Below, piece by piece: positions 1 through 1,312 of a stretch of 36,146 bases of DNA (position 1 is its first letter; each line of letters opens with the position of its first letter). A program made the position numbers and the translations under genes. The notes under the pieces are model-generated. The model worked only from the letters and a program-made list of their open reading frames with translations. It was not told the DNA's origin and made no database searches. This DNA comes from an uncultured Ruminococcus sp. (GTDB taxonomy: Bacteria > Bacillota > Clostridia > Oscillospirales > Ruminococcaceae), in NCBI GenBank assembly GCA_947169885.1, contig CAMVRM010000034.1, positions 1 to 36,146 on the forward strand, written 5' to 3'.

Positions 1-367
1 GCTTTTCTCATATCTTTATTATATCATATTCTGCGCTATTTGTCCACACCTATGTCATAAATAACACGATAAATATTACTCAGCATAGTAACTATAAATG
101 AGCGATTTTGTTAAAATATACAAATGAAGCGGTATATCAAAAGCAGTCCAAAGGTTCACTTTTGTGCAAATTGTCAAATCTGCTCATTTATAGTAAGAAA
201 TAAAAGATAAGAAAGAATAGATGAGAAATAAGAAATTACAGCCTGCGTGACCGGAAGTTTATGTTAATGTATGAAATAAACCAGCCTGCGCTGATAAACT
301 CAACAAACAGCAATATGCACAAAACAAATATTTCCGTTTTATTTACATCTACAAGAATTATAAACAA
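1..367. other. AT-rich non-coding stretch
   Basis: I see no supportable gene here. The stretch holds the short palindromic element at 91-194. After it comes a purine-rich tract (about 196-238) of AAGAAATAA, AGATAAG and ATGAGAAATAAG words, resembling tracts found beside other elements in the window. The first 90 bases show nothing recognisable. Confidence 0.6.
91..194. mobile_element. Palindromic MITE-like element, short copy (family I, copy A)
   Basis: The element has 13-bp perfect terminal inverted repeats, ACTATAAATGAGC at 91-103 and its complement at 182-194. The interior matches both ends of the longer copies at 16355-16743 and 35831 onward. It looks like an internal deletion derivative: the left end runs into the motif ATGAAGCGG, which the long copies repeat every 53 bp, and continues directly with the last such unit. 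No transposase is encoded, so any mobility would need an enzyme supplied in trans. Mobility itself is inferred, not shown. Confidence 0.75.
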
Positions 368-386
368 ATTGTTAATCCTTAACAAT
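368..386. promoter_or_regulatory. Palindromic operator candidate upstream of the peptide genes
   Basis: ATTGTTAA (368-375) and TTAACAAT (379-386) form a perfect 8-bp inverted repeat with a 3-base spacer, ending five bases before the -35 box at 392. The position, about -41 to -59 from the predicted start of transcription, suits binding by a dimeric regulator. The regulator is unknown. Confidence 0.45.
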
Positions 387-391
387 AATAA

Positions 392-420
392 TTGACTTTT
401 TTCACATAAATATGTATAAT
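392..420 (+). promoter_or_regulatory. Strong sigma-A promoter for the peptide genes
   Basis: TTGACT (392-397), a 17-base spacer and TATAAT (415-420) give a near-consensus vegetative promoter. Transcription should start near 427, leaving a leader of about 49 bases before the ATG at 476. Confidence 0.8.
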
Positions 421-475
421 AAATACATAAAGTAACACATAACACAACTCAACAAACTAAAAGGAGGTCACTATT

Positions 476-778
476 ATGACTGATGAAATGAACAAAAACC
501 TTAAAAACAAAGAACTCGACCTGGAACAGCTCGAAGGTGTAAGCGGCGGTCTTATAGTTGACTGTGGTAAATATCGTAACTATCGAATTGTTAGTGATAA
601 AACGGGTGCGATATTAGATACAGAGTGGTTTGTTTCAGATAATGCCAAAATAACTGCCGAGGCTCTTAAAGTAAGCACAGAGATCATCAGCATGGCTGAG
701 TATAAGAGACGTTTTGGAAAAGACATTGATCTGTCCATCGAGATCGATTCAAAAGCAGGAGATCCGTGGCTTAGATAA
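476..778 (+). CDS. Double-glycine-leader secreted peptide, copy 1
   Basis: This 100-residue protein has a bacteriocin-type leader, residues 1-25, ending ELDLEQLEGVSGG. The spaced Leu/Glu residues and the Gly24-Gly25 cleavage site are what C39-peptidase ABC exporters recognise. The predicted mature part is 75 residues, hydrophilic, with one Cys (Cys30), and contains the word EYKRRFGK. That is long for a classical class II bacteriocin, so it may be a small folded exported protein. The start is fixed by AAAGGAGG seven bases upstream. The second copy follows 46 bases downstream, probably on the same transcript. No exporter, modification enzyme or immunity gene is recognisable nearby, so secretion would rely on a transporter elsewhere. 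Its function as toxin, signal or effector is unknown. Confidence 0.8.
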   Translation: MTDEMNKNLKNKELDLEQLEGVSGGLIVDCGKYRNYRIVSDKTGAILDTEWFVSDNAKITAEALKVSTEIISMAEYKRRFGKDIDLSIEIDSKAGDPWLR

Positions 779-824
779 TAAGATAGAGCAACACAACTCA
801 ACAAACTAAAAGGAGGTCACTATT

Positions 825-1127
825 ATGACTGATGAAATGAACAAAAACCTTAAAAACAAAGAACTCGACCTGGAACAGCTCGAAGGTGTAAGCGGCGGTC
901 TCATAGTTGACTGTGGTGGTCCTTATAACTATCGAGTTGTTGATGATAAAACGGGTGAGATATTAGATTCAAACTGCTGGTATAAAAGCCACGCCCAAGA
1001 AGCTGCCGAAAATCTTAATGTAAGCTGCGATATCATCAGCAAGGCTGAGTATAAGAGACGTTTTGGAAAAGACCTTGATATGTCCATCGGGATCGATTCA
1101 AAAACAGGAGAGAAGTGGACTCGATAA
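825..1127 (+). CDS. Double-glycine-leader secreted peptide, copy 2
   Basis: This paralogue of the preceding gene has a leader (residues 1-25) identical to copy 1, while 29 of 75 core residues differ. The changes cluster in the middle of the core. The end of the core (AEYKRRFGKD and following) is again similar. It has three Cys (30, 51, 68) against one in copy 1, so a disulfide or thioether is possible here but not in copy 1. The same AGGAGG ribosome binding site is present, and the terminator at 1182-1220 closes the unit. Identical leaders with divergent cores suggest one shared exporter handling different cargo. No modification enzyme is encoded nearby, so a lanthipeptide call is not supported. 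Confidence 0.8.
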   Translation: MTDEMNKNLKNKELDLEQLEGVSGGLIVDCGGPYNYRVVDDKTGEILDSNCWYKSHAQEAAENLNVSCDIISKAEYKRRFGKDLDMSIGIDSKTGEKWTR

Positions 1128-1181
1128 TAAGATAGAGCAACACAACTCAACAAACTAATAGGAATATTAACAAATAAGCAC

Positions 1182-1220
1182 GAAAGGCATTGCAGGTACC
1201 AAACTGCAATGCCTTTCTTT
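1182..1220 (+). terminator. Intrinsic terminator after the peptide genes
   Basis: GAAAGGCATTGCAG (1182-1195) pairs perfectly with CTGCAATGCCTTTC (1204-1217) around an 8-base loop and runs into TTTCTTTTA. The 14-bp stem and U-rich tail make a strong Rho-independent terminator. Confidence 0.9.
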
Positions 1221-1312
1221 TACTTCTGATCGACCTTTTTTCCGCAGTATGGTATAATTATCCTAAGAATTACCGTTTCTATTATCTATTATCTTTCATC
1301 TATTATCTGAAT

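Follow-up and report, generated by a model that had tools for sequence, protein, structure and literature searches.

Tandem GG-leader small-protein genes with divergent cores in an uncultured Ruminococcus, and a candidate NHLM-type exporter encoded elsewhere

Layout of the locus

The DNA analysed here (the window, 36,146 nucleotides, contig C34) belongs to an uncultured Ruminococcus sp. whose assembly measures 3.1 Mb and is 98% complete. Near the beginning of the contig stand two genes for double-glycine (GG) leader precursors of 100 aa, their starts 349 bp apart (Table 1). The repeat finder reported two repeat families, both with this 349-bp spacing. An ungapped alignment revealed 112 identical nucleotides (441–552 = 790–901) that span the whole 25-codon leader and 35 nt of 5' UTR before it; a preliminary description of this DNA had already called the 5' leaders and the leader codons identical. 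The divergence of the cores was also correctly described there: 29 of the 75 residues differ, and the Cys count is one in gene 1 and three in gene 2. Of these differences, 14 fall in residues 45 to 65.

Table 1. Coordinates of the features in the window (positions counted from its first letter).
Feature	Position	Strand	Basis and remarks
Whole module (upstream region, promoter, two genes, terminator)	260..1230	+	Also in L005 and L006 with other flanking genes
Putative promoter, sigma-70-like, TTGACT-17-TATAAT	392..420	+	Consensus scan, 11/12 matches; consensus match only; lies in conserved upstream block
5' UTR, first copy, with Shine-Dalgarno AAGGAGG	441..475	+	Identical to 790–824
Gene 1, GG-leader precursor, 100 aa	476..778	+	ORF and relatives
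Leader 1, 25 aa, Leu-12/Leu-7/Val-4/Gly-2/Gly-1	476..550	+	Alignment; recognition positions as in the available part of PMC6363468
Core 1, 75 aa, hydrophilic, one Cys, predicted folded	551..775	+	AlphaFold2
5' UTR, second copy	790..824	+	Identical DNA
Gene 2, GG-leader precursor, 100 aa	825..1127	+	ORF
Leader 2, DNA identical to leader 1	825..899	+	Alignment
Core 2, 75 aa, three Cys	900..1124	+	AlphaFold2 of core alone
Third-unit remnant, 25 nt of 5' UTR	1139..1163	+	Repeat and comparison with L006
Bidirectional intrinsic terminator, strong	1182..1217		Conserved in L005 and L006

A third element matches the 5' UTR at 24 of 25 nt, exactly 349 bp onward. The preliminary description took it for a third, gene-less leader start; the spacing and the match stand, but the term overstates what is present, because the element is UTR only and carries no Shine-Dalgarno, ATG or leader codons. 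It is followed almost directly by ATTAACAAATAAGCACG, and the counterpart of this segment in the related locus of Ruminococcus MAG RGIG4311 (L006) is the 3' end of its copy plus the spacer before the terminator. In the most economical view a third copy has lost its middle, and on sequence comparison the element is best read as the deletion scar of a third unit. A remnant of this composition, with a 5' end as well as a 3' end, fits the expanding or contracting array proposed earlier.

Neither an exporter nor a modification enzyme was recognised among the window ORFs (called with a simple script and inspected by eye over their first 90 residues), which bears out the earlier remark that none is nearby; family-model scans within the window covered the two GG genes. 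By eye, nothing was seen in the 46 nt between the genes or ahead of the decarboxylase at 1373, no immunity gene was recognised, and the contig begins 475 nt upstream of gene 1. Rfam returned no match in the window at gathering scores.

The surroundings of the module contain several repeats. Positions 75–196 are a dispersed intergenic repeat with a 34-nt inverted repeat, and matches of 75–122 bp at 93–96% identity occur in four other stretches of the same genome (L015, L020, L021, L027). AT-rich, heptamer-like repeats in opposite orientation (194–236 and 1279–1310) flank the module on both sides, the first of them with >50 matches genome-wide.

The core, its relatives and its rate of change

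Both cores are slightly acidic and, as already noted in the preliminary description, hydrophilic (GRAVY -0.29 and -0.68), with a best 19-aa mean hydropathy of 0.49. AlphaFold2 modelled core 2 alone with a pLDDT of 90.1 and a pTM of 0.80 as three strands, a helix, a strand, a helix and two strands. In the model of precursor 1 the leader is of low confidence and the core is confident, with mean pLDDT values of 75–92 for the ten-residue blocks from residue 21 to 90 and of 54 for the last ten residues. The core is thus a confidently predicted folded domain. Helix 1 (precursor residues 54–63) holds seven of the 29 differences between the two cores, and helix 2 (73–80) holds one. A fold search disclosed no convincing known fold, which is no proof of novelty.

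Sequence searches likewise assigned the window proteins to no known family, so the non-exported family that would have spoken against an exported product was not encountered: Pfam and NCBIfam gave nothing above a curated cut-off, PADLOC nothing at E<=1, PHROGs at best E 0.059 and PDB sequences at best E 0.28. Among class II bacteriocin models the best was TIGR03949, at 12.5 bits against a cut-off of 21.5 and covering only the leader and the first residues after it; the CCRG-2 family RiPP model NF033456 scored 13.5 bits against a curated 24. Membership in the class II bacteriocins was considered and rejected, as no curated model matched and no adjacent immunity gene or exporter was recognised by eye.

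A scan of genome contigs located two close copies of the unit, one in R. flavefaciens YRD2003 (L005) and one in RGIG4311. The first, in a cultured strain whose genome also has the exporter described below, is a single intact copy 70% identical to gene 1; the second, at 67% identity to the same gene, is frameshifted, and its end is disrupted (84 aa). Given these highly similar occurrences in two further Ruminococcus genomes, chance can be excluded. Three of the four close copies are intact and align without gaps. The three loci have the upstream region and the terminator in common and differ in their neighbouring genes: the upstream block is 87.5% identical to L005 over 216 nt and 76% identical to L006 over 254 nt (gapped), and the downstream block is 91% identical over 58 nt and 97% identical over 100 nt, respectively. 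Both flanks are available for L005; they hold a STAS-phosphotransferase fusion just upstream and a large opposite-strand ORF. In L006 the copy is directly preceded by a further GG-leader gene, which has the same 5' UTR but another core.

More distant relatives are few. A full-length profile matched six of 396 family genomes at E<=0.01; we accepted the window genome (G000), G370 and G410 as real and set aside G107, G160 and G191 (E 0.002–0.01), of which G191, on inspection, showed no GG protein. A core profile matched five of 394 order genomes, four of them besides G000 partially and at E 0.002–0.008, and appears to add nothing convincing. Accepted sequences with this core number five, one of them frameshifted. 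The core in G370 is 31% identical to core 1 and sits behind a different, longer leader. In G410 and G425, one gene has leader DNA 84% identical over 92 nt, and its core is an unrelated GLASG repeat. A shared leader on unrelated cores in one case, and a related core behind a different leader in the other, suggest past recombination between leaders and cores. Some of the leader matches counted in the genome survey below may not be genes: around one on contig C13 of G410, a motif scan showed no GG gene. We also considered a virus or plasmid origin and rejected it, as no relative was present in viral contigs, plasmids or phages; one protein from another GG locus of this genome (C50) also had no relative in viral contigs.

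The exporter genes described below are synonymously saturated between the window genome and G425 or G426 (dS 1.9–2.9), and the decarboxylase adjoining the module has best matches of 43% and 51% identity, whereas dS of the module is 0.06–0.11. Such a low value in distant genomes, together with the different neighbours, points to recent transfer. A low dS (0.03–0.12; exporter there 0.74–0.78) is likewise seen in three GG genes that G410 and G425 have in common, but they adjoin the same ribosomal/nusG-type genes in both genomes, so low dS at GG loci may have another cause (exchange in place, constraint) and would not by itself prove transfer.

The preliminary description had asked for divergence beyond neutral drift, which the core shows, subject to the caveat below on multiply changed codons. 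For the four close sequences, each of the six pairwise comparisons gave a core dN/dS within 1.76–3.06, and a one-ratio codon model gave the core an omega of 4.67 (p=2.2e-4) for the four sequences and of 5.77 (p=6.5e-4) for the three intact genes, where none of 150 parametric bootstrap replicates simulated at omega 1 matched or exceeded the observed statistic. Once multiply changed codons (two or more changes) were removed, omega was 3.42 and not significant (p=0.126), and three single-pair Fisher tests were borderline (p=0.04–0.11). Residues 66–100 alone had an omega of 17.8 (p=0.014), which places the excess beyond the mid-core as well, and the leader displayed no significant selection signal. 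Between gene 1 and YRD2003, 21.5% of core nonsynonymous sites differ, compared with 8.0% of core synonymous sites and 9.1% (24/265) of flanking non-coding sites, a more than twofold excess over either; for that pair only, nonsynonymous change exceeds non-coding change at a Fisher p of 4.1e-4. In the alignment with L006, mismatches amount to 27 of 209 bases in the upstream block and one of 57 in the downstream block. By contrast with the core, omega was 0.09–0.54 for three other GG genes in a comparison of G410 with G425; two recent C50 pairs had 1.3–1.7, not significant. These values fit a recently transferred module of about 1 kb under diversifying selection, and the pattern of change suggests a mobile, rapidly diversifying secreted product.

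Leader class and the NHLM-type exporter

According to the available part of PMC6363468, the C39 protease LahT requires its substrates to carry Val-4, Leu-7 and Leu-12 as recognition positions. The window leader has exactly Leu-12, Leu-7, Val-4 and GG. Nine GG-leader proteins were found in the genome at three places (two in the window, six on C50 and one on C28), and all nine have Leu-12, Leu-7, Val/Ile-4 and GG. The six on C50 are encoded in tandem (L039:8706-10568) and have zinc-ribbon-like cores with the Cys pattern C..C(18-25)C....C, a pattern also found in GG proteins encoded next to the exporter in G410, G425 and G426; the three C50/exporter-side comparisons made gave alignments that take in the leaders, with E 4e-11, 2e-8 and 2e-7. 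The common Cys spacing and these alignments tie the leader class to the NHLM-type exporter.

The distant C39 transporter postulated earlier has a single candidate. Peptidase_C39 matched the genome once at E<=0.001 (C2:90868-91254, 115.3 bits), on another contig than the window and within a 725-aa ABC protein that scored 890.5 bits against TIGR03796 (NHLM ABC1; cut-off 853.3). For the next gene the best family is TIGR03797 at 696.5 bits, under its cut-off of 709.4. The preceding gene, for a 140-aa protein, matches the first 55 of the 421 positions of TIGR03794 (29.8 bits against 156.2). This HlyD-like partner (L007:11392-11814 and its relatives) is 137–140 aa long in the stretches read, compared with 421 positions in the family model. 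A motif scan of proteins <200 aa found no GG-leader gene in about 11 kb before and about 14 kb after the exporter of this genome (L007, L008), and by eye no modification enzyme was recognised beside it.

Seven of 14 stretches inspected have GG-leader candidates near the exporter, all seven from related genomes (G002, G426, G425, G410, G370, G001, G008); the remaining ones are the stretch from this genome, one from G007, two each from G009 and G010 and one from G011, several of them short contigs. Short leaders like those of the window were near the exporter only in G410, G425 and G426, together with a 35-aa ORF in G008; the other exporter-side GG leaders are longer and, by eye, Nif11-like.

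Of 17 genomes, 11 have an exporter that scores over the cut-off, and a twelfth (G011) has a truncated one. At E<=1, the leader profile matched ten of these 12 genomes (all except G002 and G007) and none of the other five (Fisher p=0.003), a threshold chosen after inspection of the list; at E<=10 the counts are 10/12 and 1/5, the one exporter-less genome being G006, with E 1.83 in a 343-aa frame. Four genomes had been chosen for carrying such genes, and excluding them leaves 6/8 against 0/5 (p=0.02). The window genome and G011 supplied leaders to the profile; among wholly unused genomes the counts are 4/6 and 0/5. We regard this co-occurrence as supportive, not as proof.

Further genes accompany these loci. 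A STAS-domain gene, which we take to be of the anti-sigma antagonist type, directly precedes the short HlyD gene in five (L066, L067, L068, L071, L073) of the ten stretches in which the latter was recognised by motif. What are presumably D-Ala-D-Ala dipeptidase-like genes lie near GG-leader/exporter loci at L040:5312-5977 (G370) and L073:4277-4933 (G008). In G011, positions 980–1469 of L004/L042 encode a GG-leader protein with a LysM domain as its core (Pfam, 39.3 bits), adjoined by a second GG-leader gene, this one with a CxxC core and a leader interrupted by a stop, with STAS and HATPase-like regulator genes nearby. A 761-aa ORF in G001 (L071:1297-3582) opens with an apparent Nif11-like GG leader and possibly uses the same export tag. 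G008 also contains two short, broken-looking copies of a sister GG family.

Proposed mechanism, other readings and known systems

The earlier idea of a family of small exported proteins is supported by these observations. On balance, we think it probable that the two genes encode small secreted proteins, directed by their leader to an exporter that processes them, that the genes travel as a module, and that their products diversify in response to a varying partner. With high confidence, we infer from the leader that its Leu-12/Leu-7/Val-4 face docks on the C39 peptidase of the NHLM-type ABC pair, which would cut after Gly25 and export the 75-aa core. Outside the cell the core would then, with nearly as much confidence, fold into the predicted compact beta3-alpha-beta-alpha-beta2 domain, presumably without lanthionine modification. 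From the sequences themselves, leader and UTR are held constant while the core outpaces synonymous and flanking non-coding sites; copies are gained and lost in tandem, and the module of about 1 kb appears to have moved between Ruminococcus species into different sites. The leader would serve as an exchangeable export tag, also on unrelated cores in this genome and its relatives. More tentatively, and with the balance slightly against it, the core may bind a varying extracellular partner, most likely in bacterial competition, as an unmodified bacteriocin-like or recognition protein; antagonism is the putative outcome.

A wider and more speculative proposal, which we hold rather doubtful as a whole, is that one unlinked NHLM-type exporter serves many mobile modules and that the constant GG leader is a universal tag for unrelated folded mini-proteins (beta-alpha, CxxC zinc-ribbon-like, LysM and repeat cores). 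The window family would then be an arms-race effector whose surface outpaces neutral DNA.

The cores could instead serve the producer itself in adhesion, signalling, the envelope or nutrient capture, their variation reflecting a changing host, protist or phage environment. In favour of this, the leader class is common to unrelated cores, including the LysM and CxxC types, and STAS regulator genes adjoin the exporter in half of the stretches with a recognised short HlyD gene. Rapid core change and transfer are, however, more typical of conflict, and own use therefore seems unlikely to us.

An improbable reading is that the cores give rise to a modified natural product (RiPP) and that the gene for its tailoring enzyme lies elsewhere, as in the NHLP and Nif11-type families. 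The exporter is of the NHLM type described with such precursors (PMC2887384, in its available part), the number of Cys varies, and conserved leaders with diverse cores are typical of these products. Yet the genome has no match to the LanC-like protein model PF05147 at E<=0.1, no modification enzyme was recognised by eye beside the exporter, and the 75-aa core predicts as a folded domain. Neither TIGR03793 nor TIGR03798 was listed for the window proteins at E<=10, with HMMER filters dropping most matches above about 0.1.

A family decaying under relaxed selection, with the nonsynonymous excess as noise or synonymous-site constraint, would account for the frameshift in RGIG4311 and the broken-looking sister copies in G008. 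The small number of synonymous changes, the loss of significance without multiply changed codons and the low dS at another GG locus are also in line with it. Relaxation predicts an omega near 1, though, rather than 4–6, the non-coding flanks diverge like synonymous sites, and most close copies are intact and gap-free, all of which makes decay an improbable explanation. A classical class IIb two-peptide bacteriocin, with both products acting jointly on target membranes, matches the two tandem GG-leader genes of equal length, the diversifying selection and the module-wise transfer, but is very improbable given the slightly acidic, hydrophilic cores, the single copy in R. flavefaciens YRD2003, the absence of any bacteriocin model above cut-off, and a locus in which no immunity gene was recognised and the exporter is not adjacent.

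C39 exporter cargoes are as a rule regarded as short bacteriocins, as pheromones or as modified peptides, adjoining their exporter. The cargo described here appears to be a small folded protein that is encoded far from its exporter, spreads between species and changes faster than neutral sites. It would escape searches that insist on exporter linkage or on membership in a known bacteriocin family. If the readings of export and selection are true, gut and rumen Ruminococcus would have a scarcely noticed layer of secreted mini-proteins, which could be catalogued by their leader.

Cargo with GG leaders for C39 transporters, NHLM exporters and diverse cores on shared leaders are already known from the available parts of PMC6959990, PMC2887384 and PMC6363468. 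In the literature as represented by titles and abstract openings, with partial coverage, no description of this core family was found. The GG leader and possible rumen antagonism recall the class II bacteriocins and GG-leader lanthipeptides from rumen species, for instance R. flavefaciens FD-1 (PMC13289728, in part), which differ from the present system in that here the core is long and hydrophilic, an immunity gene and an adjacent exporter were not seen, and no LanC-like match was obtained. The LahT/LahA system, as far as PMC6363468 is accessible, is similar in its Val-4, Leu-7 and Leu-12 positions and in its diverse cores behind related leaders; unlike the window genes, however, LahA leaders are of the Nif11 type, and its nine precursors are clustered with their transporter. 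With the NHLM system (TIGR03794/03796/03797; PMC2887384, in its available part), the window genome and its relatives share the kind of exporter, along with conserved GG leaders on diverse cores. In contrast to NHLP/Nif11 precursors, the leaders here are short, belong to neither TIGR03793 nor TIGR03798 and precede a core predicted to be a folded protein; further differences are that no LanC-like enzyme was found and that the HlyD partner has only 140 aa.

A further counterpart is PCAT1 with its substrate CtA from Clostridium thermocellum, a protein of 90 residues with a 24-aa leader and a 66-aa cargo (PMC6959990, in its available part). PDB chains compared with the leader and core profiles gave nothing better than E 0.28 and no kinship with CtA, although short profiles of this kind have little power. 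Both systems involve a small protein with a GG leader, and CtA is cut and exported by a C39 ABC transporter according to the same portion of that report. The present system differs in its candidate exporter, which is of the NHLM type with two parts, and in its genes, which lie in tandem, away from the exporter, and are diversifying.
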